Positions 2,438 through 33,524 of a stretch of DNA of 41,527 nt are shown piece after piece; position 1 is the stretch's first letter, and each line of letters starts with the position of its first letter. Under the pieces are notes generated by a model. It was not told the DNA's origin and did not search any database. It worked only from the letters and a program-made list of their open reading frames with translations. Source of the stretch: a virus; the IMG/VR virus record IMGVR_UViG_3300043567_000596, positions 1 through 41,527 of that record; one strand, 5' to 3'. The position numbers were made by a program, and so were the translations under genes.

Positions 2438-3172
2438 ATGAAGATATTAGTTATAGGAGATAGTTGTACAGATGTATTCATTTATGGTCATTCAAATAGA
2501 ATGTGTCCAGAAGCACCCGTACCTATATTTGAACCATCTAGAACTGTCACCAACGATGGGATGGCAGGTAATGTAAGAGCCAACTTAGAATCATTGGGGG
2601 CTAGTGTGAATCTAATCACAAACAAAGAACAGATAACAAAGACACGATATGTAGATGTTAAATCAAATCAGATGTTTCTAAGAGTAGATTCAATTGATAG
2701 AGTTAGACCTGCATTTGATATCAATAGAGTTGATTGGGATGTTGATGCGGTGATTGTATCCGATTATGATAAAGGATTCTTAACCGAAGCTGATATACAT
2801 GAAATTAGTAAGAGACACGAATTGACATTCATTGATACTAAGAAGCCTATAAACTTACAAACATTTTCCGATTACACATTTATTAAGATGAATGAATATG
2901 AGTGGGAGTTATGTGAAAAAGCTGGTGCGAAATACGAAGAGTGGGCGGATAAACTTATTATTACAATGAGTGAGAAAGGATGTTTATATAAAGATGTAGT
3001 ATTTCCTGTTAATAATGATATTGAAGTAAGAGATTTGAGTGGAGCAGGTGATACGTTTATGGCATCGTTAGTATATAAATTTGTAGATACGGAAAGTATA
3101 TCGGATTCAATTAAATTTGCTAATCAATGTGCCACTAAAGTGGTTCAGAAAAGAGGTGTTACGACAATATGA
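2438..3172 (+). CDS. HldE/RfaE N-domain-like PfkB-family sugar kinase
   Basis: 244 residues. It opens with a ribokinase-fold strand (ILVIGDSCTDVFIYG), has a Gly/Asn-rich substrate loop (DGMAGNVRANLESLGA) and the family signature DLSGAGDTF, whose Asp is the catalytic base and whose GAGD forms the anion hole. The best match I recall is the kinase half of HldE (D-glycero-D-manno-heptose-7-phosphate kinase). It is shorter than that domain (about 310-330 residues) and lacks the nucleotidyltransferase half. It probably phosphorylates a sugar for an ADP- or NDP-activated precursor; the exact substrate is uncertain. It overlaps the next gene by ATGA. Confidence 0.8.
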   Translation: MKILVIGDSCTDVFIYGHSNRMCPEAPVPIFEPSRTVTNDGMAGNVRANLESLGASVNLITNKEQITKTRYVDVKSNQMFLRVDSIDRVRPAFDINRVDWDVDAVIVSDYDKGFLTEADIHEISKRHELTFIDTKKPINLQTFSDYTFIKMNEYEWELCEKAGAKYEEWADKLIITMSEKGCLYKDVVFPVNNDIEVRDLSGAGDTFMASLVYKFVDTESISDSIKFANQCATKVVQKRGVTTI

Positions 3173-4161
3173 CAAATATAGATTTTTTTGGATGCAGTTT
3201 TACAGAGTTTCTTGAATACCCATATGAAATTCCAAAAGGTGTAATAGATTTACAATTATATTCTATGCATTCTCATAATACAAAAACATTGAGTTCATTC
3301 TTAGAATTTGATTTAGCATATAATAATAACTCTAATTATGTAGTTAATAATTATGGTAAAGGTAGTTTCGGCAATTTTACAATATGTAATGTAATAGAAA
3401 ACAAAGTAAATAAATTAGATAAAACTAACGATAACATCGCGATAGTTCAATTATCAGCTATACTAAGAAGTGAGCATAGTTGGCAATCAATTAAAAATGC
3501 AATTCGATATTATGATGATAAAGATATTTTTGATATAGATTTTGAAAGAGTTAAACCTGATTATATAGTGGAAGAATCATCTATGGATGAATTTTATGAA
3601 AATCATATAAATAACATTAACAGAATCATTAATACATTAAAATCTAACTATAATAAATTTTTTATATTTTTTGGTTGGGATGTTTTAACGAATGATTTTT
3701 ATAAGTTTTTTAAATCAACTGAATTAGATAAAATAATTCCACTTTACCCATACAAATATAGGTTGAAAGAATTTCAATATTTTGAAAATTCGGACAACTA
3801 CGATTATCAACTAAAAACATATGTAGGAAAAACAGGCGGAATGTTAGAATATTCATCTAATTTAATAGAAAATGAAATTTTGCGTTATGTAGGTGGCAAA
3901 GTTAATGACCATCACCCTTCATATTTTTCAAACAAGATTTTTTATTTTGATGTAATAAGACAATTTATAAAAGATAATACTAATTTTGATTTTAATAAAA
4001 ATTATTTATTGGAAGAAGATGTAATTAAATTTGAAACATTTTTGGAAACATTGTTAATAAAAAAATCAAAAGGCGGAGAATGGGAGGATTATCAGTATTC
4101 TGATTTACAAAAGGAAACTGTTATGTACATCAGAAATAATATTTTAAATAAAATAATATAA
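3169..4161 (+). CDS. SGNH-hydrolase-like protein
   Basis: 330 residues from an ATGA overlap. The N terminus IDFFGCSFTE matches block I of SGNH/GDSL hydrolases with Cys in place of Asp before the nucleophile Ser. A Gly-Lys-Gly-Ser-Phe-Gly-Asn stretch fits block III, and DHHPSYFSNK near the C terminus fits the Asp-x-x-His block V. Such enzymes remove acyl or acetyl groups from glycans and other esters. Three further SGNH-like proteins occur in the window (6642, 7318, 12381), but this one is more divergent. Base composition is especially AT-rich compared with its neighbours. Confidence 0.55.
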   Translation: MTNIDFFGCSFTEFLEYPYEIPKGVIDLQLYSMHSHNTKTLSSFLEFDLAYNNNSNYVVNNYGKGSFGNFTICNVIENKVNKLDKTNDNIAIVQLSAILRSEHSWQSIKNAIRYYDDKDIFDIDFERVKPDYIVEESSMDEFYENHINNINRIINTLKSNYNKFFIFFGWDVLTNDFYKFFKSTELDKIIPLYPYKYRLKEFQYFENSDNYDYQLKTYVGKTGGMLEYSSNLIENEILRYVGGKVNDHHPSYFSNKIFYFDVIRQFIKDNTNFDFNKNYLLEEDVIKFETFLETLLIKKSKGGEWEDYQYSDLQKETVMYIRNNILNKII

Positions 4162-4164: not shown

Positions 4165-4785
4165 ATGGGATTAAAAGAAGCAACCGCAGACTTGCATAGT
4201 AAAGCGGAAAAGACACAATTCAGTCAATTAATATTTTCAGGTACAATTCCTGAACAAGAGTATGCATATTACTTATTCAATATGTATCATATTCATAACG
4301 CATTAGAAAATAAGTATCAATTACCACATCCTTCTTTGAATAGATGTAAAGCTATAGAAAAGGATTTAGATGTGTTAATCAAACTTAAAATGAATTTAAC
4401 TGAATCTACCAAAAAATACATAGATTATATAAATGCATTAACAGAGGAGCAATGGAAGGCACATATCTATGTTAATTACCTAGCTATTGTATATGGTGGA
4501 CAGATGATTAAATCAAAAGTACCTGGTGTAGGAACATATTATGTAATAGAAGATATGCAAGAATGTGTTGGTGCAATTAGAGCATTCTTAAATGATGATA
4601 TGATTGATGAAGCAAATAAAGGATTCCAATTTAACATTGATGTATTAGATGATATATGGAATACATTAAGACCTAATGGAGTATGGGAATTAGGAAATTA
4701 CGAATCAATTGCGGAAACCGCGACGGCAATTAATATTAACCCAATGGGTGGCAACAAAGCACCAATAAATTTAGGAAGATTATAA
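4165..4785 (+). CDS. ho: Heme oxygenase
   Basis: 206 residues, the usual single-domain length. It starts with LKEATADLHSKAE, matching the proximal helix of heme oxygenases, where the His (residue 11 here) ligates heme iron. This is followed by YYLFNMYHIHNALE, equivalent to the conserved Tyr-rich helix. The distal helix reads VYGGQMI where cellular enzymes have DLSGGQ; the Gly-Gly pair that bends over heme is kept. The enzyme opens heme to biliverdin IX-alpha, CO and Fe2+ using reducing equivalents such as ferredoxin. The bilin reductase follows at once (TAATG overlap), so biliverdin is presumably handed on. Confidence 0.9.
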   Translation: MGLKEATADLHSKAEKTQFSQLIFSGTIPEQEYAYYLFNMYHIHNALENKYQLPHPSLNRCKAIEKDLDVLIKLKMNLTESTKKYIDYINALTEEQWKAHIYVNYLAIVYGGQMIKSKVPGVGTYYVIEDMQECVGAIRAFLNDDMIDEANKGFQFNIDVLDDIWNTLRPNGVWELGNYESIAETATAININPMGGNKAPINLGRL

Positions 4786-5411
4786 TGAATTACAGAGAAC
4801 AATTAGATATAGTAGCAGGTCAGTTCTTAGAGTTGATTAAGAAAGCACCTAATTGTGAAGAGGTATATACAGAGGATTTCGGATGGGAGAATTATAGGTA
4901 CAAATCAGACTTATTTAGATTGGCGCATGTAGAGAGATACGGAGATGATAAAATTCAAGTACTGCATGTGACCACCTTTCCACATAAAGATTCACCCGAA
5001 CCTATCTATGGATTTGATTGCATAACAATTGATAAGATGGTGATAGGGTGTTATATGGATTTGAGTCCAGGTATAAATCAATATCTTTTCCACCAGCATA
5101 AAAAGTGGGGTGATAAGAAACCAATTCCAGAATGGGCTAGTGTATTTAGTGATAACTTTATTGTAATGAAGCCTGTATCAAATGAGGAGTTTGTTGAATT
5201 TTGTGATTGGAGTGTGGATAGATACGATTGGTATGCGTATAGTATATTAGATAGGAGAACAAAGGGAGTGGAAGAAGATATCATAAAAGTACAAAATAAT
5301 TATTGTGATATACAATCTAAAAATCCTAGAACATATAATGTGTTGAAGGCAAAGATAGGAGAGGAAAGAGCAAAGTATTTTATGGAACAAATATTATTTC
5401 CACAAATATGA
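4785..5411 (+). CDS. Ferredoxin-dependent bilin reductase (PcyA/PebS/PcyX family)
   Basis: 208 residues. Blocks in order match the family: an FRLAHVER segment; LHVTTFPH; IYGFDCI; the hallmark DLSP (92-95); IPEWASVFSDNFIVMKP; and a C-terminal block from the Gln-rich helix to GEERAKYFMEQILF. Glu50, His61 and Asp78 align by eye with the catalytic Glu76, His88 and Asp105 of Synechocystis PcyA. The family reduces biliverdin to phycocyanobilin, phycoerythrobilin or related pigments with electrons from ferredoxin. Which product is made cannot be told from sequence alone. It is shorter than PcyA (about 250). Cyanophages carry pcyA and pebS; this copy sits among Bacteroidota-type signals. Confidence 0.88.
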   Translation: MNYREQLDIVAGQFLELIKKAPNCEEVYTEDFGWENYRYKSDLFRLAHVERYGDDKIQVLHVTTFPHKDSPEPIYGFDCITIDKMVIGCYMDLSPGINQYLFHQHKKWGDKKPIPEWASVFSDNFIVMKPVSNEEFVEFCDWSVDRYDWYAYSILDRRTKGVEEDIIKVQNNYCDIQSKNPRTYNVLKAKIGEERAKYFMEQILFPQI

Positions 5412-6649
5412 ACAATGTAGTATTTTATCGTTATTTGGTCAATCATAAAGATGAATTAGAATTTGAGGATTTCAGAACTGATTCTAAGTATGATGCTGAA
5501 GTTCAATTTTTTACATTAAGAAGAAACTATTTCTTTTCTGTATTAAAAGATTTCAATATTATAACTAATGAAAATGATATCGGAGGATTATCTGATTTCA
5601 CTTTAGTGATTGGGTTTGACCCATCGTTTAAAGAATTATTTCATCTGATAGAAAGAGAAGACTTCAACTCAATAGTTGATACTCATAAAGATAGAATAAA
5701 GAAGATAGTATTTTGGGAAATGGATACAGGGTGGACTAATTATGGCCAATCTGAATACGATGAGAAGAAAACTGAATTTAAAAAGTGGTTTGAAGAAAAG
5801 GGTATAGAATATGAAATATTTTCAACTGCTATAAAATTCAGATATGATGATGAGGTGAAATACTTTCCTGCTCATAACGCAATGGTAATAGAAAGATTGG
5901 TTAAAGAATTAACTGATAACGGATACTATGATTATGTACAAGGTCATAACCCACAGAAGTATTTTTACTGTACATCTAATTCATTAAATGTAGATAGAGC
6001 ACACTTCTACAAATACATAACGGATAATAAATTATGGGATTCTAATAACGTTGCATTATTTTCAACATATAGAAATGTATTTACAGACCATCAGTATGAT
6101 GAGTTGGGCTGGGGGTTTAATTACTCATATATAGTTGCACTAAGAGGTGGTGGAAACTTACAACATATAGATGATACATTTAAGTTTTATGCTAAACCAT
6201 TTGAAGATGAAGATTTTCACACTATGAATTATTCCGTTCTATCCAACTATGATAGAGTTAGAGATACATTATTTGAAATGGTATTCGAAACGATATATGA
6301 GGCAAATGAAGATTTAATTGTGCAAACATCGGAAAAAACATTTAAACCATTTGTACACAAAAAACCATTTCTTATATTCTCATATACAGGAATATGGAAA
6401 GAATTAAAAAACTTAGGATTTAAATCGTATGAATATATGTTTGATGAAACATATGATGAAATGCCTCACGCAAATGATAGATTATATGATGTGATGGATG
6501 AGTTTAAAAGAATATGCGATAAACCAATTGGTGAATTAAATGAAATAGTTAAGGAAAACATTAAAACACAGGATTACAATTTTGATATTATAAATGTTTG
6601 GTTCAAAAAATGGAGAAAAGGATTCACCGATGCAATAACATATGAATAA
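5408..6649 (+). CDS. Glycosyltransferase-like protein (SEKTFKP family)
   Basis: 413 residues, ATGA overlap with the bilin reductase. The C-terminal third has VQTSEKTFKPFVHKKPFLIF, then a Leu-Gly-Phe turn and an acidic DETYDE stretch, mirroring the partial gene at the window start (about the last 150 residues comparable). The Ser/Thr-Glu-Lys plus Lys-Pro-Phe pattern resembles nucleotide-sugar sites of GT10/GT-B enzymes, which is why I propose glycosyl transfer. The N-terminal half is unfamiliar (a DDxGG..TLVIGFDPS region). It lies between bilin and SGNH genes in one overlapping chain. Confidence 0.5.
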   Translation: MNNVVFYRYLVNHKDELEFEDFRTDSKYDAEVQFFTLRRNYFFSVLKDFNIITNENDIGGLSDFTLVIGFDPSFKELFHLIEREDFNSIVDTHKDRIKKIVFWEMDTGWTNYGQSEYDEKKTEFKKWFEEKGIEYEIFSTAIKFRYDDEVKYFPAHNAMVIERLVKELTDNGYYDYVQGHNPQKYFYCTSNSLNVDRAHFYKYITDNKLWDSNNVALFSTYRNVFTDHQYDELGWGFNYSYIVALRGGGNLQHIDDTFKFYAKPFEDEDFHTMNYSVLSNYDRVRDTLFEMVFETIYEANEDLIVQTSEKTFKPFVHKKPFLIFSYTGIWKELKNLGFKSYEYMFDETYDEMPHANDRLYDVMDEFKRICDKPIGELNEIVKENIKTQDYNFDIINVWFKKWRKGFTDAITYE

Positions 6650-7328
6650 GATACTTTTTATAGGTGATAGTTTTACTTGGGGACAAGGATTGTACTTTTA
6701 TAAATGGTTAGAAGATAAAAGGGAATTGCCTGATTCGGTGGGTGGTATGTATCCATCCCATTCTCATTTAGTGACACCCGCGGATATAAAATATAAAGAT
6801 GAATACTCTTTTACAGGTTTAGTTTCCAAATATTATGGATTGGAGCCAGCTAAAAGACTGACAAACGGAGGTAGTAATACTGAGATAATTTTGGATATGA
6901 TTCCTATGCTAGATAAATTAGGGAATCAAATAGATAAAGTTGTATTTCAATTTACTTCTATATCAAGATATCAATTCAGAGATTTGAATATGGGTAGTAT
7001 TGATAATTGTAATGGAACGTTTGAGGAGATATATGCTAAAAGAGTTGGTAACTTATTTAAGTATATTGATAATACATTACGATACTTTTCTGAGTTGTAT
7101 AACTTTGAGTATTGTTATTTGGATTGGTTGGGCGATTTTTATAAAGAATCTCCATCTCAATTTGTAACATATAGTGTAGGTGGAATTCGTTGTCAATATT
7201 TCAATCAGTTTTTAAATGAATACAAAATCGATTTGATGGTGGATAGTAAACCAATAATAGATTTACATTTAAATAAAGAAGGTCAGAAAATATTGAGTAA
7301 CTCTATAATATCTCACTTTGGAAAATAA
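6642..7328 (+). CDS. SGNH/GDSL hydrolase-like protein
   Basis: 228 residues, overlapping the previous gene by 8 bases. Block I is IGDSFTWGQG with nucleophile Ser10. Block III is NGGSNTE, supplying oxyanion-hole Gly and Asn. Block V is DLHLNKEGQ, supplying Asp and His. The three blocks are in the correct order for the SGNH fold. No signal peptide is visible, so it would act in the cytoplasm or on virions, for instance as a glycan deacetylase or esterase. It is a tandem paralogue of the next gene, which shares GDSFTWGQGLY almost exactly. Confidence 0.75.
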   Translation: MNKILFIGDSFTWGQGLYFYKWLEDKRELPDSVGGMYPSHSHLVTPADIKYKDEYSFTGLVSKYYGLEPAKRLTNGGSNTEIILDMIPMLDKLGNQIDKVVFQFTSISRYQFRDLNMGSIDNCNGTFEEIYAKRVGNLFKYIDNTLRYFSELYNFEYCYLDWLGDFYKESPSQFVTYSVGGIRCQYFNQFLNEYKIDLMVDSKPIIDLHLNKEGQKILSNSIISHFGK

Positions 7329-8097
7329 AAAATACATAGCATTCATAGGAGATAGTTTTACTTGGGGGCAAGGATTGTATTTACCTAGTTGGGTGGAAAG
7401 AAAGCCCGAAGTATTAAGAACTTTACCTATTGGAGTTCAATGGATAGAGCATCAGAAATTTGTAGATGAAACTGATTTAAAAATAAAAGATGAATTATCA
7501 TTCACTTCAATAGTTGCCAATGAATTAGGCAGAATATGTGTAAAGAAAATTGATAACGGTGGAGATAATTTAGATAATCTAACCATACTTAAAACGATAG
7601 ATAGACTTAACGTAGATGGAAAACAATTAGATTTTTCGTTTAAAGATAACGATGTAATCTTAATCTTTCAGCTAACTCATTTTGGTAGAAACCAGATATT
7701 TGAATATATGACGGAATCGGAGAAAGATAATATATTGGAATATAATATGGTTGATAGCACGGAAGCGATTAATAAGTATTTTAAAGATAAGGTTAGGCAA
7801 TATTTTGATTACATTGATACTACTTTAGAAACCATAACAAAAGAATATGATATTGAATATTGGTATTTAGATTGGGATGGGGAATATTGGGAGTTCAGAC
7901 CCGATAAATTTATTGATATTAAACTAGGTAAAAATAAAGGTAAGTACTTTTCCCCTCTAACACACACTATGGCAATTGATGTAAATTTTGAGGGTAGGGT
8001 TATAAGAGATGGGCATCTCAATAAAGAGGGTAATAAAGTAATAGCAAAATCGATTTTAGAGTGGTTACGGGATAAATCGAGGGGGGCTGGGGGGTAA
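7318..8097 (+). CDS. SGNH/GDSL hydrolase-like protein (tandem paralogue)
   Basis: 259 residues. The only start that keeps block I (FIGDSFTWGQG) near the N terminus is TTG 7318, which overlaps the upstream stop by 11 bases; no ATG lies nearby. NGGDNLDN and DGHLNKEGN provide the remaining SGNH blocks. Compared with the gene before it, the middle carries an extra stretch around residues 90-130. It closes the 1-8097 cassette. The last codons run into a G-rich tract encoding DKSRGAGG, which is part of a repeated G-rich/C-rich element. Confidence 0.72.
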   Translation: MENKKYIAFIGDSFTWGQGLYLPSWVERKPEVLRTLPIGVQWIEHQKFVDETDLKIKDELSFTSIVANELGRICVKKIDNGGDNLDNLTILKTIDRLNVDGKQLDFSFKDNDVILIFQLTHFGRNQIFEYMTESEKDNILEYNMVDSTEAINKYFKDKVRQYFDYIDTTLETITKEYDIEYWYLDWDGEYWEFRPDKFIDIKLGKNKGKYFSPLTHTMAIDVNFEGRVIRDGHLNKEGNKVIAKSILEWLRDKSRGAGG

Positions 8098-9939: not shown

Positions 9940-10408
9940 AATATATCTGTATTTGGATGATGTAAGAACTCCAACTGATGATAGGTGGCAAGTGGTACGA
10001 AATTACGAAGAGTTTGTGGCACATATCCGAATGAGAGGTTTAGAGAATTACGAAGTGATTTCTTTGGACCACGATTTAGGTGATACTGCTATGCAAGAAT
10101 ATTATAATAATGTAAGGGATAACTATACAATTGATTACAAAAACATAACCGAAAAAACGGGTATGGATTGTGCTAAATGGTTGGTGGCGGAAAGTATGAC
10201 TAAGAAAATACCTTTACCACAAATCTATGTTCATTCAGCTAATCCAATTGGTAGTGCAAATATGATGGGGTATATCAACAACTATTTTATGAATAGTAGA
10301 TTACCACAAACTTGCATTAGAGCAAAAGTTGACCATACATATGAAGAGGTATTAAGTGAAGAGGAAAGAATTAAGAGATTTAAAATACTTAGAGATTCAA
10401 ATAAATAA
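9923..10408 (+). CDS. Cyclic-phosphate-processing receiver (cREC)-like protein
   Basis: 161 residues. YLYLDDVRTP at the N terminus and VISLDHDLGD near residue 45 match the acidic strands of receiver-like domains proposed to process cyclic phosphates at RNA ends (cREC family). A conserved IYVHSANPIG strand follows. The family is linked by comparative genomics to RNA repair. In this phage, RNA ligase, kinases and a HAD RNA-repair-like protein support such a role. The activity itself is a family-level prediction. Confidence 0.7.
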   Translation: MQRENKIYLYLDDVRTPTDDRWQVVRNYEEFVAHIRMRGLENYEVISLDHDLGDTAMQEYYNNVRDNYTIDYKNITEKTGMDCAKWLVAESMTKKIPLPQIYVHSANPIGSANMMGYINNYFMNSRLPQTCIRAKVDHTYEEVLSEEERIKRFKILRDSNK

Positions 10409-10411
10409 GTT

Positions 10412-10717
10412 ATGACTCAGAAAAAAATAGATGATATATTTCACATCGGAGATGGTAGTCATTTAACGGTAAAGAGTTCAACCGTTGTAGAGATGCACGA
10501 CCATTTAAAGTTAATGACAGGTGATGGTGAATCAACGTCATTAGATGTGAAAATATTAGCAGATTTTGATAATATACCACCTAAGTATCATCAACTATTT
10601 TGTCAAATGATGAGTGTGAGATATGGAGGAATAGTAAATATTTGGGATAACACTCAACCATTTGCTAAGCCAGAAGTACAACAGAAGAAGTGGTATCAAT
10701 TTTGGAAAAGTAAATAA
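10412..10717 (+). CDS. Hypothetical protein
   Basis: 101 residues, starting three bases after the cREC-like gene. It has a beta-rich N-terminal half and a C-terminal basic aromatic tail (KKWYQFWKSK) that could contact membrane or nucleic acid. No domain is recognised. Confidence 0.7.
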   Translation: MTQKKIDDIFHIGDGSHLTVKSSTVVEMHDHLKLMTGDGESTSLDVKILADFDNIPPKYHQLFCQMMSVRYGGIVNIWDNTQPFAKPEVQQKKWYQFWKSK

Positions 10718-10747
10718 TTTTATTAACAATAAACATGGAGATTAACT

Positions 10748-10987
10748 ATGAAGTGTATTAAATGTATCAAAGTAGCCAAAGGTTACGAATTGGATGAAAT
10801 CCGTAGAGTATCAGACACCGATGCGGATGAAAGAGTAAAGGGTGGGTATTGGAAGTTTATCCCTAAGAGTGAGTGGAAAGCAACATTGAAGAGAGCAGTG
10901 GTAAAAAATGATACCGTTGTTTCTAAAGATGAAGTTGCTGAGTTATCAATTGAGGAAAAGAAATTGAAACGAAAGAAACAAAAATAG
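10748..10987 (+). CDS. Small basic hypothetical protein
   Basis: 79 residues. It starts with MKCIKCIKVAKGYELDEIRR, in which a Cys-x2-Cys is followed by a short beta segment, and ends in a Lys/Arg-rich tail. It resembles small phage proteins that precede structural or DNA-handling genes, but nothing specific can be assigned. The promoter for iscU overlaps its last codons. Confidence 0.7.
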   Translation: MKCIKCIKVAKGYELDEIRRVSDTDADERVKGGYWKFIPKSEWKATLKRAVVKNDTVVSKDEVAELSIEEKKLKRKKQK

Positions 10988-10995
10988 TATATTTA
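10964..10995 (+). promoter_or_regulatory. Bacteroidota-type promoter before iscU
   Basis: TTG (10964-10966), 21 nt, then TATATTTA (10988-10995). It lies across the end of the previous gene, 17 nt upstream of the iscU ATG. Confidence 0.55.
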
Positions 10996-11012
10996 TAACA
11001 AAATAATAGTAT

Positions 11013-11414
11013 ATGGCATATTCAGAAAAGGTATTAGACCATTATTCTAATCCTAAAAATGTGGGAACTTTGGATAAAAGTAAACCAAATGTAGGGACAG
11101 GTTTGGTAGGAGCACCAGAGTGTGGAGATGTTATGAGGTTACAAATCGAAGTAAACAACGGTGTAATAACCGATGCTAAATTCAAAACATTTGGTTGTGG
11201 CAGTGCAATTGCAGCATCCTCATTAGCTACAGAGTGGTTAAAGGGGAAAACGTTGGATGAAGCTGTTACAATCGATAATATGGATTTAGTAGAAGAACTC
11301 AACCTTCCACCTGTTAAGATACATTGTAGTGTATTAGCGGAGGATGCTATAAAATCCGCTATTAACGATTACAGAGTTAAAAATGAAATGGAAGAGTTAG
11401 TGTTCGATAACTAA
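11013..11414 (+). CDS. iscU: Fe-S cluster scaffold IscU
   Basis: 133 residues, full length. The three cluster Cys are present: Cys37 in PECGD, Cys62 in FGCGS and Cys105 in HCSVLAEDA, plus Asp39, which tunes cluster release. The LPPVK motif at 98-102, recognised by the HscA chaperone, is intact. All key residues are kept, so it should accept clusters from the host IscS and HscA/HscB. IscA follows after one gene. Likely clients include the radical SAM protein here and the ferredoxin needed by the bilin reductase; that link is inference. Confidence 0.95.
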   Translation: MAYSEKVLDHYSNPKNVGTLDKSKPNVGTGLVGAPECGDVMRLQIEVNNGVITDAKFKTFGCGSAIAASSLATEWLKGKTLDEAVTIDNMDLVEELNLPPVKIHCSVLAEDAIKSAINDYRVKNEMEELVFDN

Positions 11415-11421
11415 CCTTAAA

Positions 11422-12057
11422 ATGAAAAAATTATTAGGAGTTGTTGCCTTATTATGTGTATTGGTAACAGTAAAGGCTCAAGATGTAGTTGTATTAAAAC
11501 ATACAAACTACACATCACATTTTAGTAAATCAAAGAAGTATCCTGTAATGGTAGAATGGTGGGAAACAAAAGCTAAAGTGGCTTGTGTAAACCCATTAGC
11601 GAGAAAGGATAATTTTAAACCGGACCCATTGTTACCAAATGAAACTAATATTGGGCAGGATTATGTAGGAAGTGGATTCGATAGAGGCCACCTAATGCCA
11701 GCAAAAAGTAATCAATGTCAAACTCAATCGGTGCAAGATGAGTGTTTCTATTATTCAAATATGGTAGCACAATATCATCGATTAAATGCAGGAGATTGGA
11801 AATCTTTAGAAACTCTAACAAGAGATGTTGCAACGATAAGTGATTCCGTTCATATATGGGCAGGTAATATTGGTGAAATTAAAAAAATAGGTAAGGTTTC
11901 AGTACCTAAACAATGTTGGAAGGTGTTTTATGTGGTTAGAAATAAAGAATGGTTTGCATATTTATTTGAAAACGACCAATCTAAACCAGATGGTATCAAC
12001 AACAATAAAGTTGATTTAGCGGATATTGAAAAATTGACAGGATTAAAATTTAAATAA
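11422..12057 (+). CDS. Secreted DNA/RNA non-specific endonuclease
   Basis: 211 residues. A signal peptide is clear (MKKLLGVVALLCVLVTVKA, cut near residue 19). The beta-beta-alpha-metal core has DRGHLMPA with catalytic His90, and YYSNMVAQYHRLN with Asn122 placed to bind Mg2+, as in Serratia-type nucleases. Export means it would act in the periplasm or outside, perhaps degrading host or competitor DNA or freeing nucleotides at lysis. It is placed between iscU and iscA with almost no gaps, an odd neighbour for Fe-S genes. Confidence 0.9.
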   Translation: MKKLLGVVALLCVLVTVKAQDVVVLKHTNYTSHFSKSKKYPVMVEWWETKAKVACVNPLARKDNFKPDPLLPNETNIGQDYVGSGFDRGHLMPAKSNQCQTQSVQDECFYYSNMVAQYHRLNAGDWKSLETLTRDVATISDSVHIWAGNIGEIKKIGKVSVPKQCWKVFYVVRNKEWFAYLFENDQSKPDGINNNKVDLADIEKLTGLKFK

Positions 12058-12381
12058 ATGATTACAGTTACAGAAAATGCAGCAATAAAAGTTAAATCTT
12101 TAATTGAAGAAAGTGGCCATACTACGCCATACTTAAGAGTAGCAGTTAAAGGTGGAGGATGTAGTGGATTGGCATACGATTTATCTTTCGATGATGAAAT
12201 AAAAGGAAGTGATATGCAATTTGAAGATAAAGATGTAAAAATTTTAGTCGATGGAAAATCATTTATGTATTTGTATGGAACAGAATTGGATTTCTCCGAT
12301 GGTTTAAACGGAAAAGGATTTGCATTTAATAACCCAAACGCAAGTAGAAGTTGTGGATGTGGTGAATCATTTGCTGTGTAA
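12058..12381 (+). CDS. iscA: A-type Fe-S carrier IscA/ErpA
   Basis: 107 residues. The three ligand Cys are Cys35 (GGGCSG) and Cys99 and Cys101 in the C-terminal SCGCGESF. The length and the start (MITVTENAAIKVK) match IscA/ErpA/HesB proteins, which carry clusters from IscU to apo-enzymes. It begins directly after the nuclease stop, and its own stop overlaps the next start (TAATG). Whether it is closer to IscA or ErpA cannot be decided by eye. Confidence 0.93.
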   Translation: MITVTENAAIKVKSLIEESGHTTPYLRVAVKGGGCSGLAYDLSFDDEIKGSDMQFEDKDVKILVDGKSFMYLYGTELDFSDGLNGKGFAFNNPNASRSCGCGESFAV

Positions 12382-13238
12382 TGAAACAGATATATGTTAA
12401 TGGAAGTAGCCTGAGTTGTGGTGGTGGATTAGAACCAAACACTCAGGCTTTTTCTATTTATACAGAAAGTGTCAAGAAATGGGACAATTCAAAGAATGTA
12501 TCCTATGGAAATCAATTAGGGGTGTTGCTAGGAGTAGATGTAGTTAATGAATCTAAACAGGGTGGCGGATTAGATAGATTAATTAGAAAAACATATGAGT
12601 ATATAAACTCAAAAACAAATGAAGAGTTAGAGGAAACTCTTTTTTTGTTTGATATACCTATCCAACCAGCTAGATTTGAGGTGTATTCAAAACAATATAA
12701 AGATTGGTTTGTAGTTTCAGTAGCATATAGAGAATCAACTGAGATACCTCATACAATTACAATATCAACCAAAGATGGTGATATAGATTCCAAAATATCA
12801 TTTAGTAGGGATTATATGAATGGTCAACTTAATTTAGAGTTTGAAGACCTTAAGAAACATAATCATTTGTTATCTTCATTTGTAGAAGAGTATCACGATT
12901 ATCAAAAAGAAGCGGAAAGAATGCTAAGAGAACTTACATTCTTTTATTGTTACTTAGATAAAAGAAAGATACACTACATTAGAGACATAACCGAAGGGTT
13001 TTTCGCCGGTTCATTTATGTTTGATGCTAGAAATGACAAAGATTTTTTCGATAAACTTAGTATATTTGATGATAGTAATCCAAATGTAATAAATGTGGAA
13101 ACAATATGGACGCTAGGTAGAAAACAGAAATGGAGAATAAAAGATGAAATTGATATAGAAGATGACCATTTGGGATACTTTGGTAATAAAAAATACGCAC
13201 ACTATCTCTATAACTTATTGACTCCCAATGAGTTATAA
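12381..13238 (+). CDS. Divergent SGNH-hydrolase-like protein
   Basis: 285 residues. The N terminus IYVNGSSLSCGGG fits block I with Gly-Ser-Ser. NESKQGGGLDR lies where the Gly-x-Asn block would be. DDHLGYFGNKKYAHYL near the end fits the Asp-x-x-His block. The match is weaker than for the proteins at 6642 and 7318. A long helical, acidic middle (residues 150-190) separates the blocks. It is translationally coupled to iscA. Confidence 0.5.
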   Translation: MKQIYVNGSSLSCGGGLEPNTQAFSIYTESVKKWDNSKNVSYGNQLGVLLGVDVVNESKQGGGLDRLIRKTYEYINSKTNEELEETLFLFDIPIQPARFEVYSKQYKDWFVVSVAYRESTEIPHTITISTKDGDIDSKISFSRDYMNGQLNLEFEDLKKHNHLLSSFVEEYHDYQKEAERMLRELTFFYCYLDKRKIHYIRDITEGFFAGSFMFDARNDKDFFDKLSIFDDSNPNVINVETIWTLGRKQKWRIKDEIDIEDDHLGYFGNKKYAHYLYNLLTPNEL

Positions 13239-22253: not shown

Positions 22254-22325
22254 CGTGGAGTAGAGCAGTGGTAGCTCGCTAGGCTCATAACCTAGAGGTC
22301 GGTGGTTCGAACCCATCCTCCGCAA
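22254..22325 (+). tRNA. tRNA-fMet (CAT), initiator
   Basis: Cloverleaf with acceptor CGTGGAG/CTCCGCA. The first pair is C1-A72, a mismatch that marks initiator tRNAs and blocks elongation use. The D arm GAGC..GCTC and anticodon loop CTCATAA match E. coli initiator tRNA closely. The anticodon stem has only two of the usual three G-C pairs. CCA is not encoded. Confidence 0.9.
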
Positions 22326-22331
22326 CAAAAA

Positions 22332-22423
22332 CTATCATAGTGGTATCTGATACTGACAGCTCTATGGGAGTGATGGGTGTGAAAGCAGATTGAAAAGGCT
22401 ACAACGTAAACCCACTATGATAG
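22332..22423 (+). ncRNA. Structured RNA closed by a perfect 12-bp stem
   Basis: CTATCATAGTGG (22332-22343) is the exact reverse complement of CCACTATGATAG (22412-22423), enclosing 68 nt. It starts six bases after the initiator tRNA and so should be made from the same promoter. The interior can form CTC-TATGG-GAG, but no tRNA features (T loop or anticodon arm) are seen. No ORF of note is present. Unknown RNA; possibly a processed small RNA. Confidence 0.55.
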
Positions 22424-22447
22424 ATTGAAAAATATTTACAAATAAAC

Positions 22448-22484
22448 TAGGAAATGTGAAAATGTTTTCGTATATTTGTAAAAC
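22448..22484 (+). promoter_or_regulatory. Promoter in 37-bp direct repeat, copy 1
   Basis: The -7 box TATATTTG is at 22471-22478, preceded by TTTTCG. The -33 position reads CTAG instead of TTTG. The whole 37-bp stretch (22448-22484) recurs without change at 22610-22646. The downstream unit is the small RNA at 22489. Confidence 0.75.
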
Positions 22485-22488
22485 AAAA

Positions 22489-22585
22489 TGAGAGAGTGGT
22501 TGAAGCCATCATCTAATAAAACCGAATGAGTGACCACTTCCTTATGGTAAGGGGGTTAATAAAGCCGGATACCCCTCTCACTTTT
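22489..22585 (+). ncRNA. Small four-way-junction RNA with own promoter and terminator
   Basis: The helices tile the RNA almost without gaps: closing stem TGAGAG/CTCTCA (22489-22494 with 22575-22580), arm AGTGGT/ACCACT (22495-22500 with 22533-22538), hairpin CCTTA-TGG-TAAGG (22540-22552), and arm GGGT/ACCC (22553-22556 with 22571-22574). This is a cloverleaf-like junction but has no T loop or anticodon signature. CTTTTT follows the closing stem, so the stem can also act as terminator. Function unknown. Confidence 0.6.
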
Positions 22586-22609
22586 TGTAAAAAAAAGTTT
22601 TAAAAATAA

Positions 22610-22646
22610 TAGGAAATGTGAAAATGTTTTCGTATATTTGTAAAAC
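22610..22646 (+). promoter_or_regulatory. Promoter in 37-bp direct repeat, copy 2
   Basis: Identical to 22448-22484, with TATATTTG at 22633-22640. It is the closest promoter upstream of the large RNA candidate, so it probably drives 22650 onward. Confidence 0.75.
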
Positions 22647-22654
22647 TAAATCGC

Positions 22655-22722
22655 ACTACCGATTCAATGTGAGAGTAGTATAAACAGAGTATCCTTAACC
22701 GGACATAAGTTTGGCTCACATT
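22655..22722 (+). ncRNA. Structured leader RNA, possible pseudoknot
   Basis: AATGTGAG (22666-22673) pairs with CTCACATT (22715-22722), 8 bp perfect. ACTAC (22655-22659) can pair with GTAGT (22675-22679), which interleaves with the first helix and would form a pseudoknot if both coexist. Inside, CTTA/TAAG (22694/22706) forms a small hairpin. It lies between promoter copy 2 and the boxA at 22729. Confidence 0.5.
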
Positions 22723-22728
22723 AAATAA

Positions 22729-22738
22729 GTTCTTTAAA
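22729..22738 (+). promoter_or_regulatory. boxA-like element before large RNA
   Basis: GTTCTTTAAA, as at 22237. Its place directly before about 880 nt of untranslated sequence fits a need to prevent Rho-dependent termination. Confidence 0.5.
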
Positions 22739-22739
22739 T

Positions 22740-23620
22740 TAATGAAATAATTTCTATAAAGTAACCTAGTGTTACACAATAGAGTGGCCGCATATGGTCG
22801 TTAAATAAACTTCGAAAGAAGGATAAAGTGGGTGTACTAAGTGGTACATCTGCGGCTCCTCCCATAAGGGAGATGAGCTCGAGTATGCAAGTGAGATATC
22901 ATTTTGGCTTTGTAGGTGGGGGTAACACTATCATCGAAGAGTTGAAATGACTGAGCAACTGTAGATTGTTCAGTTGAGGTGGGAACACCAATAAGAATAA
23001 CTCATAGAATTTATGTAAGAAGTATGAACTTAATCCCTTCATATCATTGCGTGATTCAATACCAAAGTGGTCTTAACATCAAATTGGGGAAACCCCTTAA
23101 GATAAGACTGTGTACAGGTGGTGCTGTTACTATCCTTTTATAATGTGTACCAACACTTATAAATGAAGATGACTTGAAGTATGGTGGTAGGGATATCACA
23201 TCGAGTAGTATAGTATTCCGTTGTTCAAAAGATAACGGAGCTGGTGGTAAACCACTACTTGAATAATTCTACAAACTAAAACTCAATTTGATTTGGACAT
23301 CAAAATTCAATTAAAATTAAGAAAAAGTGTTTACCAGTTGCAGACGAAAGGTGTCTACATAGTAATGAGTTGTTCATTGCCACAAACCTCCTCAAGGGGA
23401 ATGTGATTCATCTGAAAGGTTTCTAACACCGCGAGGTGCTAATCTGCTCGGCAGGGTAGAAGAAAATAAGTACGATGAGAGTAGTTTGTAACTTTAAGAT
23501 TGATAATCTATAAACATCGACATTGAATTGGTACTTCTCAAAAGGAAGTGGAAACGAAAGGAAACAATAATCTTTCTAAAGCTGGTTCGCAATATGGAGT
23601 ATTCTCATCCTTATTTTTTT
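22740..23620 (+). ncRNA. Large ornate non-coding RNA candidate (GOLLD/ROOL-like in setting)
   Basis: About 880 nt with no convincing reading frame and dense helices: GTAAC/GTTAC (22761/22771), GCCGCA/TGCGGC (22787/22851) enclosing CTTC-GAAA-GAAG and TGTAC/GTACA, CTCCC-ATAA-GGGAG (22859), CTGAGCAA/TTGTTCAG (22951/22966), GGTG-GGAA-CACC (22978), GTCTTA/TAAGAC (23070/23103) around GGGG-AAA-CCCC, TCCGTT/AACGGA (23217/23234), GTGG-TAAA-CCAC (23244), CACC-GCGA-GGTG (23427), CTGC-TCG-GCAG (23444), AGATT/AATCT (23497/23505). GATGAGAGTA (23474) pairs with TATTCTCATC (23600), followed by TTATTTTTTT, a terminator. Several loops are GNRA type. GOLLD and ROOL are long phage RNAs found beside tRNAs; membership is inferred from setting and form only. 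Confidence 0.65.
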
Positions 23621-23660
23621 ATCATAATGGTTAGAGTTGGTTCGATTCCAATAATGATAG
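23620..23660 (+). ncRNA. Minimal tRNA-like hairpin without anticodon arm
   Basis: A T arm is plain: GTTGG, loop TTCGATT, CCAAT (23636-23652). Around it TATCAT (23620-23625) pairs with ATGATA (23654-23659) like an acceptor stem, followed by GCA. Between acceptor and T arm only ATGGTTAGA remains, similar to a D loop; there is no anticodon arm. It could be a tRNA relic or an acceptor/T-arm mimic that tRNA-binding enzymes recognise. Confidence 0.5.
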
Positions 23661-23667
23661 CAGTGAG

Positions 23668-23742
23668 AAGTAATTTATCGAGGCTTATATTAACCGGAGC
23701 ATGACTTGACGTGGCGTATTTTGAAGATGAATTACTTTTTTT
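23668..23742 (+). ncRNA. Hairpin-closed RNA with terminator
   Basis: AAGTAATTTATC (23668-23679) pairs with GATGAATTACTT (23726-23737), 12 bp with one G-U, followed by seven T. The 46-nt interior has no coding potential. The strong stem and U tract make it a terminator; the long loop suggests it is the 3' end of a distinct RNA. Confidence 0.6.
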
Positions 23743-23777
23743 ATTTAAAACAAAAATATTAGATACTTATATTAACA

Positions 23778-23870
23778 ATGAGAACATCTTTAACACATAC
23801 AACTTATAGCCAACCGAATCTAATTTGGGAAGGCCGTTGTGCGCTGTTAGAGGATACTGATGTAGGATAA
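23778..23870 (+). CDS. Possible 30-residue peptide
   Basis: ATG 23778 to TAA 23868-23870, preceded by the A/T leader TATATTAACA. The peptide begins MRTSLTHTTYSQPNLIWEG. It is the only reading frame worth noting in the 1.55-kb gene-poor stretch and is followed by a terminator after 27 nt. It could equally be chance; no promoter of the usual type is visible. Confidence 0.25.
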   Translation: MRTSLTHTTYSQPNLIWEGRCALLEDTDVG

Positions 23871-23897
23871 AATGTAAATAACATTTGAATTATATAA

Positions 23898-23928
23898 ACC
23901 CTCTAACCCAAAAGTTAGGGGGTTTTTT
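23898..23928 (+). terminator. Intrinsic terminator
   Basis: ACCCTCTAAC (23898-23907) and GTTAGGGGGT (23914-23923) form 10 bp with one G-U, followed by six T. It lies only six bases before tRNA-Asn, so the tRNAs beyond need antitermination, read-through or a promoter I do not see. Confidence 0.8.
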
Positions 23929-23933
23929 GTTTT

Positions 23934-24005
23934 GGGGAATTAGCTCAGCGGTAGAGCAATAGACTGTTAATCTATTGGTCGATGGTTCGAATCCATCATT
24001 CCCCT
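23934..24005 (+). tRNA. tRNA-Asn (GTT)
   Basis: Acceptor GGGGAAT/ATTCCCC, D arm GCTC..GAGC, anticodon loop CTGTTAA, T arm GATGG-TTCGAAT-CCATC. A complete cloverleaf without encoded CCA. Confidence 0.95.
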
Positions 24006-24011
24006 CTGTTG

Positions 24012-24022
24012 GTTCTTTGACA
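24012..24022 (+). promoter_or_regulatory. boxA-like element between tRNAs
   Basis: GTTCTTTGACA, the best boxA match in the window and similar to bacterial rRNA leader sequences. It sits between tRNA-Asn and tRNA-Tyr. Confidence 0.5.
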
Positions 24023-24033
24023 TTATGGGAAAT

Positions 24034-24113
24034 GCCTGTATCGCATAGCGGCAATTGCGGCTGACTGTAAATCAGCTCCTTCGGGTTCGGTGGTTCGAGT
24101 CCATCTGCAGGCA
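24034..24113 (+). tRNA. tRNA-Tyr (GTA)
   Basis: Acceptor GCCTGTA/TGCAGGC with one G-U, anticodon loop CTGTAAA, a long variable arm as expected for bacterial tRNA-Tyr, and T loop TTCGAGT. Discriminator A. Confidence 0.9.
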
Positions 24114-24119
24114 CAATAT

Positions 24120-24195
24120 AGGGTAATAGAGGAGTACGGTTTATCTCGCTTCGTTTGGGACGAAGAGTACGCAGGTTCGAATCCTGCTTACCCTA
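24120..24195 (+). tRNA. tRNA-Pro (TGG)
   Basis: Acceptor AGGGTAA/TTACCCT is perfect. The anticodon stem CTTCG/CGAAG encloses TTTGGGA, giving TGG. T arm GCAGG-TTCGAAT-CCTGC. Discriminator A. Confidence 0.9.
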
Positions 24196-24200
24196 CAAAC

Positions 24201-24271
24201 ATCTCTTTGGTGCAATGGTAGCATATCGGTCTCCAAAACCGCAGATAAAGGTTCGAATCCTTTAGGGGGTG
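24201..24271 (+). tRNA. tRNA-Trp (CCA)
   Basis: Acceptor ATCTCTT/AGGGGGT uses three U-G pairs. Anticodon loop CTCCAAA in a CGGT/ACCG stem, T arm AAAGG-TTCGAAT-CCTTT, discriminator G. Confidence 0.85.
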
Positions 24272-24276
24272 CAAAT

Positions 24277-24348
24277 AGTTCTTTGGTGTAACGGATAGCA
24301 CGAAACGCTACGGACGTTTTAGTAAAGGTTCGAATCCTTTAGGAACTA
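24277..24348 (+). tRNA. tRNA-Arg (ACG)
   Basis: Acceptor AGTTCTT/AGGAACT with one U-G pair, anticodon loop CTACGGA in AAACG/CGTTT, T arm AAAGG-TTCGAAT-CCTTT identical to the tRNA-Trp next to it. A34 would need deamination to inosine by host TadA. Confidence 0.9.
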
Positions 24349-24353
24349 CAAAT

Positions 24354-24435
24354 ACCCGAATGGTGGAATTGGTAGACACAGCGGTCTTAGAAGCCGTGGC
24401 CGAAAGGCTTGAGAGTTCGAGTCTCTCTTTGGGTA
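24354..24435 (+). tRNA. tRNA-Leu (TAG)
   Basis: Class II tRNA: acceptor ACCCGAA/TTTGGGT, Leu-type D loop, anticodon loop CTTAGAA in GCGGT/GCCGT, variable arm with GGCCGAAAGGCT, T loop TTCGAGT. Confidence 0.92.
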
Positions 24436-24459
24436 CATTAAAAATAAATAAGAAAATGC

Positions 24460-24490
24460 TTGACTTTTAATGCAAAATGTATTACCTTTA
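24460..24490 (+). promoter_or_regulatory. Extended phage promoter, copy C
   Basis: TTG (24460-24462), 20 nt, TACCTTTA (24483-24490), followed by CTATGTAATAAGAG and then AAAGATAAAAGAT before the ATG. It shares AAAATGCTTG with copies A and B. It starts a protein gene inside the tRNA array. Confidence 0.8.
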
Positions 24491-24525
24491 CTATGTAATA
24501 AGAGTTAAACATAAAGATAAAAGAT

Positions 24526-24747
24526 ATGAATAGTTTACCCAATTTGGCTTTGATGAGTGTTAATGAGTATTGTGACTTCTTAGTGAGTCGTGCGATGCAT
24601 TTGCGTGTTTCTCCATTTGAGTTGAATATGGAGTATTGCTTTGAGATGGGTGCTATTAGTGATGAGAGATATGAGAGGGCGAAGTGGGAGATGAATGCCA
24701 GAAGAAATGATTCATTCTGGTTAGAACGTGGTGAGGTAGTTAGATAA
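24526..24747 (+). CDS. Small hypothetical protein
   Basis: 73 residues, helical, with Trp and Arg near the C terminus (ERAKWEMNARRND). Begins 36 nt after the -7 box of promoter copy C. No family recognised. Confidence 0.65.
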   Translation: MNSLPNLALMSVNEYCDFLVSRAMHLRVSPFELNMEYCFEMGAISDERYERAKWEMNARRNDSFWLERGEVVR

Positions 24748-24777
24748 TTAAATTATAAACCTTAAAATATAAAAGTT

Positions 24778-25044
24778 ATGAACATTACATGGTTAGAAGA
24801 CAAAACGTTAAGTACTTTCATTAGTTGTTTATATGCGGAACCTGGTTATTCAGATGTTGATGTAAACGATTTGAGTGAAGAAATGGGCATCCCAACAAAA
24901 ACAATCAGAGGAGCATTAGGTTCATTAGTTAAGAAAGGAATCATCACCGTAGAAAGAAACGATAGTGGATATGATATTATCTACTTAAACAAAAACTATT
25001 GGGGAATGGTTAATGAGAATTGGGCTGAAGCGGCTAAAGAATAG
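24778..25044 (+). CDS. Winged-helix DNA-binding protein (predicted)
   Basis: 88 residues. The layout helix (DVNDLSEEMGIP), helix (TKTIRGALGSLVKKGII), then a two-strand wing (TVERNDSGYDIIYLN) is that of winged helix-turn-helix regulators such as MarR- or ArsR-like domains. It may control phage or host promoters; the target is unknown. The A/T leader CCTTAAAATATAAAAGTT precedes the start. tRNA-His starts ten bases after its stop. Confidence 0.65.
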   Translation: MNITWLEDKTLSTFISCLYAEPGYSDVDVNDLSEEMGIPTKTIRGALGSLVKKGIITVERNDSGYDIIYLNKNYWGMVNENWAEAAKE

Positions 25045-25053
25045 GATTAAAAC

Positions 25054-25127
25054 GGTGTTTATAGTGTTAATGGTTAGCACATCAGATTGTGGTTCTGCTA
25101 GTATGGGTTCGAATCCCATTAATCACC
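25054..25127 (+). tRNA. tRNA-His (GTG)
   Basis: Has the His hallmark G(-1) opposite C73. Acceptor GTGTTTA/TAATCAC has one U-U mismatch. Anticodon loop TTGTGGT in CAGA/TCTG; T arm ATGGG-TTCGAAT-CCCAT. Confidence 0.88.
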
Positions 25128-25132
25128 CCAAT

Positions 25133-25217
25133 GGAGAGTTGCCTGAGCGGTTAAAGGAGCAGTTTGCTAAACTGTCATCGAGTAATCGGTGCATTGGTTC
25201 GAATCCAATACTCTCCG
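25133..25217 (+). tRNA. tRNA-Ser (GCT)
   Basis: Class II: acceptor GGAGAGT/ACTCTCC perfect, anticodon loop TTGCTAA, long variable arm, T arm ATTGG-TTCGAAT-CCAAT, discriminator G. Confidence 0.93.
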
Positions 25218-25236
25218 CAAAATAAATGAGAAAATA

Positions 25237-25268
25237 TTAGGTTATATCAATGTTTTTTCGTATCTTTG
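25237..25268 (+). promoter_or_regulatory. Bacteroidota-type promoter
   Basis: TATCTTTG (25261-25268) preceded by TTTTTTCG. The -33 site reads TTAG (25237-25240), one base off. The ATG at 25276 is seven bases after the -7 box. Confidence 0.65.
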
Positions 25269-25275
25269 TAAAGTT

Positions 25276-25674: not shown

Positions 25675-25678
25675 AAAC

Positions 25679-25750
25679 GCTCAGTTCGACTAAGGGTTAG
25701 GTCACATCCCTTTCACGGATGTAATACGGGTTCGAATCCCGTACTGAGTA
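25679..25750 (+). tRNA. tRNA-Glu (TTC)
   Basis: Acceptor GCTCAGT/ACTGAGT, anticodon loop CTTTCAC in CATCC/GGATG, T arm ACGGG-TTCGAAT-CCCGT. Discriminator A is less usual for Glu. Confidence 0.88.
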
Positions 25751-25756
25751 CAATAA

Positions 25757-25830: not shown

Positions 25831-25835
25831 CATTT

Positions 25836-30281: not shown

Positions 30282-31487
30282 ATGAAATACGATTTAGGTA
30301 TATTGAATGATTACATAGAAAGGGGATTGGTAATAAAGCAAGTTCACCCAACTTTGCCTTTATCAATCTACAACTATTCACGTTCTTGTCAATATGGACA
30401 GGTGTGGGATGATATTACTTTAAATTGTAGAGGGTTAGTATTAGATAACGAAGGTAATGTAATCGCTAAACCATTCCCTAAATTCTTTAACTACGAAGAA
30501 CATACTGCGGATGAAATTCCAAATGAGTTGTTTGATGTGTATGAGAAGATGGATGGTAGTTTAGGTATATGCTTCTACTATGAAAGAGAATTAACATATA
30601 GTGAAAGGTATAGATTATGGTTCAATGGTAACTATGAAACAGGTATGGAATACTATGAAGGTATTGTTCCTAACTTTGATGACCCATACTTTCATCCTAC
30701 CCCAACAAAAAAGGGTGAGTGGCATATAGCAACGAGAGGTTCATTTGTTTCAGACCAAGCGGTGAAAGGTAAAGAGATGCTGGATAAATTAAATACCAAA
30801 TTCGGATTGATACCTGGATATACTTACTTATTTGAAATCATCTATCCTGAAAATCGAATCGTTGTAGATTATGGTGGAGCTGAAAAATTGGTTGTATTAG
30901 GTTGCTACAATAACGAAACCGGTGAGGAAGGTAATATCGATGAAATGGTTAATGAAGGATTTGAAGTCGTAACTAGATATAATACTTTTGGTGAAGGCTT
31001 TGATGTGTTGAAGAGAGAGATATCAAATTCAAAAGAAGGTTATGTCATTCGTTTCAGAAATGGAATGAGAATGAAAATTAAAGGCGATGAGTATGTTCGA
31101 TTACACAGAATCTTAACTAACTTTTCAACTACTGATATATGGGAGTTGTTAAGCACTAAGGGTAATATGGATGAGTTCTTAGAAAGAGTACCCGATGAGT
31201 TTGATGATTGGGTAAAGAAAGTTACTATGGAGTTGAGATATAGTTTTTTTCATATCAATGAAAGAGCGGGTAAGATACATGATTATTTTAGATATGGAAA
31301 ATACAATGATAGGGAATCCGAACCAACAAAAAAAGAATTTGCTTTACATTTAGAAAAATCTAATGTTGAACCATCCCTTCGTTCAGTATTATTTGCAATG
31401 TGGGATAGTAAGCCTTATGACCATATAATTTGGAAAATGATTAAACCAAAATGGTCAAAACCTTTTAGAAAAGATTTGGATAATTAA
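30282..31487 (+). CDS. T4 Rnl1-like RNA ligase
   Basis: 401 residues. Motif I is YEKMDGSLG with the nucleotidyl-accepting Lys89. An upstream CRGLVLD (Arg50) matches the family. SKEGYVIRF is motif IV and MRMKIKGDEY motif V. T4 RnlA homologues seal 3'-OH to 5'-phosphate RNA ends, classically repairing host tRNA cut by the anticodon nuclease PrrC. With its upstream phosphoesterase and kinase it forms a healing-and-sealing unit. The groES promoter starts within its last codons. Confidence 0.92.
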   Translation: MKYDLGILNDYIERGLVIKQVHPTLPLSIYNYSRSCQYGQVWDDITLNCRGLVLDNEGNVIAKPFPKFFNYEEHTADEIPNELFDVYEKMDGSLGICFYYERELTYSERYRLWFNGNYETGMEYYEGIVPNFDDPYFHPTPTKKGEWHIATRGSFVSDQAVKGKEMLDKLNTKFGLIPGYTYLFEIIYPENRIVVDYGGAEKLVVLGCYNNETGEEGNIDEMVNEGFEVVTRYNTFGEGFDVLKREISNSKEGYVIRFRNGMRMKIKGDEYVRLHRILTNFSTTDIWELLSTKGNMDEFLERVPDEFDDWVKKVTMELRYSFFHINERAGKIHDYFRYGKYNDRESEPTKKEFALHLEKSNVEPSLRSVLFAMWDSKPYDHIIWKMIKPKWSKPFRKDLDN

Positions 31488-31506
31488 AAAACTTTTCGTA
31501 TCTTTG
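31475..31506 (+). promoter_or_regulatory. Bacteroidota-type promoter of groES-groEL
   Basis: TTTG (31475-31478), 20 nt, TATCTTTG (31499-31506). Both boxes are near consensus. The transcript has a leader of about 80 nt with a palindrome. Confidence 0.85.
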
Positions 31507-31513
31507 TACAACT

Positions 31514-31590: not shown

Positions 31591-31866
31591 ATGAGCGTAA
31601 AAGTAACACCTTTGCACGACAGAGTTATCGTGAAACCAGCAGAAAAAGCTGAAAAAACTGCAGGTGGAATTATCATTCCTGATACTGCACAAGACAAACC
31701 ACAACAAGGAGAAGTAGTAGCCGTTGGTAGCGGAAGAAAAGATGAACCATTGACTGTTAAAGTTGGTGATGTAGTTCTATTCGGAAAATACGGAGGTACT
31801 GAAATCGAATTAGATGGTGAGAAATTTCTTTTATTAAAAGAAAGTGATATTTTTGCAATTATTTAA
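31591..31866 (+). CDS. groES: Co-chaperonin GroES
   Basis: 91 residues, standard length. It has the start [14 protein letters not shown], the mobile-loop region [20 protein letters not shown] that contacts GroEL, and a C-terminal strand ending DIFAII. It starts the chaperonin operon, 20 bases before groEL. With its own GroEL it can form a matched folding machine instead of using that of the host. Confidence 0.97.
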
Positions 31867-31871
31867 ACTAA

Positions 31872-33524
<1,653 letters not shown>

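Follow-up and report, generated by a model that had tools for sequence, protein, structure and literature searches.

A heme oxygenase and bilin reductase gene pair in a phage with Bacteroidota host signals

Gene order and relation to known phage cassettes

The DNA analyzed here (the window, an IMG/VR virus record of 41,527 bases that also encodes a phage-type RNA ligase and 18 tRNA genes) carries a heme oxygenase (HO) gene directly followed by a gene for a ferredoxin-dependent bilin reductase (FDBR). The two genes and their one-base overlap had been recognized at these positions in an initial annotation made from the sequence alone, and both were borne out, the stop and start codons sharing one base in a TAATG junction at position 4785 (Table 1). 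The two family assignments were also confirmed by Pfam, PDB matches and predicted folds. Specifically, the HO matched Pfam Heme_oxygenase with E 7e-19 (68.9 bits against a cut-off of 23) and HO enzymes in the PDB with E of about 1e-7, and the FDBR matched Fe_bilin_red with E 3.9e-20 and, as its best solved relative, PcyX EBK42635 with E 5e-20, so that a chance open reading frame is ruled out for both. The best NCBIfam model for the FDBR was PcyA (E 2.7e-24, below the equivalog cut-off).

Table 1. Positions of the cassette, its key residues and the host-related features in the window.
Feature	Position	Strand	Basis
Heme oxygenase (HO) gene	4165..4785	+	206 aa, Bacteroidota-type HO subfamily; Pfam PF01126, AF2 model, tree
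Codon of H11 (His25 of human HO-1, proximal heme ligand)	4195..4197	+	alignments
Distal helix NYLAIVYGGQ	4474..4503	+	gapless alignment to human HO; Gly-Gly-Gln kept
Ferredoxin-dependent bilin reductase (FDBR) gene	4785..5411	+	208 aa, clade sister to phage PcyX; Pfam PF05996, AF2 model, trees
Glu50 codon (PcyA Glu76; Asp in PcyX)	4932..4934	+	alignments
His61 codon (PcyA His88)	4965..4967	+	alignments
Asp78 codon (PcyA Asp105)	5016..5018	+	alignments
DLSP motif, residues 92-95	5058..5069	+	sequence, alignment
IscU/NifU-N Fe-S scaffold, host marker and possible iron sink	11013..11414	+	Pfam NifU_N E 2e-50
IscA-type Fe-S carrier, possible iron sink	12058..12381	+	Pfam Fe-S_biosyn E 9e-21
Bacteroidota-type promoter (TTG...TAnnTTTG form), upstream of groES	31476..31508	+	pattern scan
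groES and groEL, host markers	31591..33524	+	Pfam

Single-protein scans of viral contigs found no relatives, whereas alignment-based scans recovered more than 300 FDBR relatives. Of the 80 viral loci examined whose upstream sequence was long enough, 77 had an HO gene upstream of the FDBR gene on the same strand, mostly overlapping it, and the window shows the same arrangement of a phage hemO-FDBR cassette, with a directly upstream, coupled HO gene in a phage genome. Marine and freshwater phages have been reported to carry cassettes of the hemO-pcyA/X type, and for phage CB_2, proposed to infect Methylocystis, the two enzymes were shown to turn heme into biliverdin and then into phycocyanobilin (PMC11480375). 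Pelagibacter phage Mosig also carries an HO and an FDBR in the order found in the window. The occurrence of the pair in phages of non-photosynthetic hosts is thus already published (Mosig on SAR11; CB_2; PMC11480375), and of the initial interpretation the two families and the Bacteroidota host stand, while this element is not new and the proposed link to phytochrome is weak. What is new in the window is a reductase branch sister to PcyX, an HO subfamily with replaced distal residues and the Bacteroidota setting.

Within the clade of the window, dN was well below dS for both genes (0.10 vs 1.39 for the FDBR and 0.08 vs 0.59 for the HO), and the cassette genes of the relatives are under purifying selection. 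The two partners appear to have been exchanged among relatives, as judged from pairwise identities: contigs L090 and L009 share 86% identity in the HO and 58% in the FDBR, and L090 and L091 share 84% in the FDBR and 60% in the HO.

Several proteins of unassigned family are encoded around the cassette (3169-4161, 6642-7328, 7318-8097 and 12381-13238), some beginning with GDSFTWGQGL or FGCSFTEF in a way that resembles SGNH hydrolases; the ones scanned gave no Pfam match. On the T4-like phage contig L089, a TonB-dependent receptor gene (10226-12934; 902 aa, CarboxypepD-reg and Plug domains) lies near the HO-FDBR pair and a carbamoyltransferase gene. The baseplate wedge protein of Microcystis phage Mel-JY01 (PP395634.1) is about as similar to that of this Bacteroidota phage contig (40%) as those of Flavobacterium phages are (39%). 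For the neck-like protein of L091, no isolate relative was found.

Active-site residues and phylogeny of the two enzymes

The AF2 model of the HO (pLDDT 82) matched rat HO-1 with a Z score of 21.0 over 170 residues at 2.2 A, in agreement with an HO fold. The proximal-histidine helix noted in the initial annotation was confirmed, H11 aligning with His25 of human HO-1 and being invariant across all phage and Bacteroidota HOs aligned. The annotation had also remarked on YGGQ in place of SGGQ; this is correct and understates the change, with R136, G139, D140 and S142 (human numbering) replaced by N104, A107, I108 and Y, respectively. Canonical HOs and the marine PcyX-associated phage HOs have R(Y/H)(L/M)GDLSGGQ at the distal helix. 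Because the distal Arg136/Gly139/Asp140 network (R..GD.SGG) of HO-1/HmuO-type enzymes is absent, the window HO was classed as a member of a variant HO subfamily and not as a canonical HO. Loss of heme- and bilin-contact residues in a structural model had been named as a finding that would refute the annotation. The outcome is mixed: the heme-ligand histidine and the bilin triad described below are kept, but the HO has lost some of its distal network.

Four phage relatives and five HOs from Bacteroidota chromosomes carry the same distal replacements (N, A, I or L, Y or F). Together with the window HO these sequences, ten in all, formed one clade in the HO tree (support 96/90) in which phage and chromosomal members were interleaved. 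A phage-only HO clade, and with it a phage-only origin, was rejected by the AU test (p-AU 0.0097). Decay of the HO as the cause of the replaced helix was also rejected, as chromosomal homologues share the replacements and dN is well below dS; their conservation in phages and chromosomes under this constraint indicates a maintained subfamily. In two Bacteroidota genomes the chromosomal HO gene directly follows a siderophore/heme-type TonB-dependent receptor gene, an adjacency that points to a role of the chromosomal HO in iron acquisition.

For the FDBR, the AF2 model (pLDDT 92) gave Z scores of 25.9 to Synechocystis PcyA (207 residues, 2.1 A) and 19.6 to PcyX, consistent with the FDBR fold. 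The Glu50/His61/Asp78 set and the DLSP motif reported initially were both recovered, the triad aligning with Glu76/His88/Asp105 of Synechocystis PcyA, which have been named essential (PMC9800206), and the protein is, as also reported, shorter than PcyA (208 vs about 245 aa). PcyX lacks Glu76 (PMC10151467). At this position the window clade, PcyA, L010 and L107 have Glu, and almost all of the marine PcyX sequences examined have Asp; four PcyX-like phage reductases (L015, L045, L086 and L011) have Ser or Cys there.

In a tree of 50 FDBR sequences, from which alphaproteobacterial PcyA was left out, the window FDBR and those of L089 (58% identical), L090, L091 and L009 formed one all-phage clade (99/98). 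This clade joined the phage PcyX group at 100/100 in a sister position; the PcyX sequences formed a group of their own (90/86 to 100/99) with the window FDBR outside it. Grouping of the window FDBR with cyanobacterial PcyA was rejected by the AU test (p-AU 0.0039). L010 and L107 were uncertain neighbors of the window clade on long branches. L107 (IMGVR_UViG_3300032223_002232, 169,763 bases) carries a very divergent HO-FDBR pair, its FDBR keeping Glu76 and having DFTR in place of the D-x-S-P motif, and its HO having WLKDVYGGQ as distal helix. The phylogenies of HO and FDBR, which had been proposed as a check, placed neither protein outside its family.

Phycoerythrobilin formation has been tied to the PcyX-specific Asp55, and phycocyanobilin formation by the CB_2 enzyme has been attributed to its absence (PMC11480375). 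Since the window FDBR keeps the PcyA-type Glu/His/Asp triad and does not have the PcyX-specific Asp, phycocyanobilin is predicted as its most likely product.

Host of the phage

The phage host is most likely a non-photosynthetic member of the Bacteroidota, and the proposal to this effect in the initial annotation is supported by several lines of sequence evidence. The window GroEL shared 63-76% identity with Bacteroidota (54% for one divergent paralogue) and 52-59% with cyanobacteria, and IscU was 83-84% identical to four Bacteroidota genomes. In a pattern scan, promoters of the form TTG-N-TAnnTTTG numbered ten on the + (coding) strand where 3.6 would be expected, some of them lying immediately ahead of groES, uvdE and the tRNA cluster; SD-like sites were found for only 5 of 60 genes. 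The window HO also groups with Bacteroidota chromosomal HOs in the tree. The PfkB-type kinase of the window resembles cyanophage genes, so that a single gene is insufficient to fix the host; tblastn searches with the RNA ligase and the radical-SAM protein gave no host information. The tRNA genes are clustered at 22254-27356, with Bacteroidota-type promoter sequences before them at 22153 and 22183, and a run of host-like genes at 31591-35722 comprises groES, groEL, uvdE, a flavodoxin-fold quinone reductase gene and clpS.

No FDBR scored above the cut-off in 395 Bacteroidota genomes, save in one cyanophage-contaminated assembly, nor in 295 Bacteroidota genomes of one class, the two partly overlapping samples amounting to about 690 genomes. 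The exception, an apparent FDBR of Nonlabens xiamenensis (L150; NZ_RMVE01000006.1, 188 kb), was rejected, as the contig is that of a T4-like cyanophage. It carries pcyA and genes for a sliding clamp, a clamp loader and a DNA polymerase, and looks like contamination of the Bacteroidota assembly. A contig labelled as a Bifidobacterium breve MAG (L129, CALPNT020000001.1) encodes a Synechococcus-type PcyA, the label being probably wrong.

Proposed function, alternatives and known systems

The explanation that we favor, at about an even chance, is that the pair is a translationally coupled cassette of a Bacteroidota phage in which heme opening would be ferredoxin-driven, biliverdin would be reduced probably to phycocyanobilin, and the main benefit would be the recycling of host heme iron. 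The HO would open heme using O2 and electrons that host ferredoxin probably supplies, yielding biliverdin, Fe2+ and CO, a step that would run on a distal helix without the Arg/Asp proton relay. The FDBR would use ferredoxin electrons to reduce biliverdin, and its removal of biliverdin would pull the HO reaction forward. Recycling of host heme iron would take place during infection, and the phage-encoded IscU and IscA are a plausible sink for the released iron, feeding Fe-S assembly. Against this, the IscU and IscA genes lie 6 kb from the cassette, outside the operon, and for a benefit in iron only an HO alone would suffice, making the reductase surplus. The window ORFs that were scanned yielded no ferredoxin, no phytochrome and no bilin-binding globin. 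A light-harvesting purpose is very unlikely, given that the Bacteroidota genomes sampled have no bilin reductase of their own.

Among the host roles considered in the initial annotation, heme-iron release is better supported than the charging of a bacteriophytochrome. A role in chromophore supply, with the reduced bilin being loaded onto a phytochrome or other bilin-binding protein of the host and so altering host light signaling, is rather improbable: the CB_2 HO and PcyA can charge the phytochrome Cph1 (PMC11480375) and a PHY domain is present in some Bacteroidota, but in only 9 of 118 genomes, the HOs adjacent to these phytochromes belong to a separate HO branch, and the window genes scanned encode no phytochrome. 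Bacteriophytochromes normally take biliverdin itself as chromophore, so that the reductase would work against them. It is also unlikely that the pair serves detoxification, clearing free heme from the dismantled host while the bilin scavenges radicals; this would follow from the reaction, and the pair is conserved, but the cassette has no linked oxidative-stress genes. An otherwise unchanged cassette with phycoerythrobilin as the FDBR product, as with PcyX, has a similarly low probability, the position of the clade beside PcyX in the tree and PcyX EBK42635 as the nearest solved relative favoring it and the Glu at the key position speaking against it.

HO activity itself is not assured. The D140A replacement turns human HO-1 into a peroxidase (PMC5623701), as does G139 replacement according to the title of Liu et al. 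2000 (cited in PMC5542595), and among HOs in the PDB the one nearest to the window distal helix is the G139A mutant of the human enzyme, though the match is weak (E 1.2). Plant HOs are active although they lack Arg and Asp, and have His at position 140 (PMC7948506), where the window HO has Ile. With G139A and D140I, the window HO might no longer make biliverdin and might be a heme-binding protein or peroxidase, leaving the FDBR to act on host or scavenged biliverdin. We regard this loss of activity, described for human G139 and D140 mutants (PMC5623701, PMC5542595), as quite unlikely here: the heme ligand and Gly-Gly are kept, and the motif is under purifying selection and still paired with an FDBR. 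The HO may represent an unrecognized mechanistic class in Bacteroidota and their phages, activating O2 on heme with neither the distal Arg/Asp nor a plant-type His relay and recruited beside a PcyX-sister reductase that keeps an ancestral phycocyanobilin-type active site; this reading is tentative and less likely than not.

In the window, the phage heme-to-bilin cassette reaches a phylum without a bilin reductase of its own in the genomes sampled, and the question of why phages of heterotrophs make bilins becomes testable in culturable Bacteroidota. The natural HO subfamily breaks the textbook rule on catalytic residues, and the PcyX sister group provides a test case for how a Glu-to-Asp change redirects synthesis from phycocyanobilin to phycoerythrobilin.

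Among known systems, the hemO-pcyX pair of marine phages, as in pelagiphage Mosig EXVC030M (MT647606), shares with the window a tailed phage genome and an HO directly upstream of an overlapping FDBR. The reductases are 33% and the HOs 35% identical; however, PcyX has Asp where the window FDBR has Glu, the Mosig HO has the canonical GDLSGGQ, and the Mosig host is SAR11. The vHemO/vPcyA pair of the freshwater phage CB_2 (PMC11480375), compared by description only, is also an HO and FDBR of a non-photosynthetic-host phage without the PcyX Asp55. The CB_2 enzymes have been shown to be active with phycocyanobilin as product, and CB_2 differs in its proposed alphaproteobacterial host and in also carrying alaS. 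Synechocystis PcyA (2d1e, 4qcd) has the same fold and Glu/His/Asp triad as the window FDBR, which shares only 23% identity with it, falls outside the cyanobacterial PcyA group and is about 37 residues shorter. The Bacteroidota HOs encoded next to TonB-dependent receptor genes (L185, L186, L202 and L203) belong to the same HO clade and have the replaced distal helix, but are chromosomal with no adjacent FDBR. Soybean HO-1, a plant-type HO (PMC7948506), is likewise a natural, ferredoxin-driven enzyme without Arg136 and Asp140 and has Ala149-His150 in the distal helix; its sequence similarity to the window HO is low, and it has His at position 140 where the window HO has Ile.
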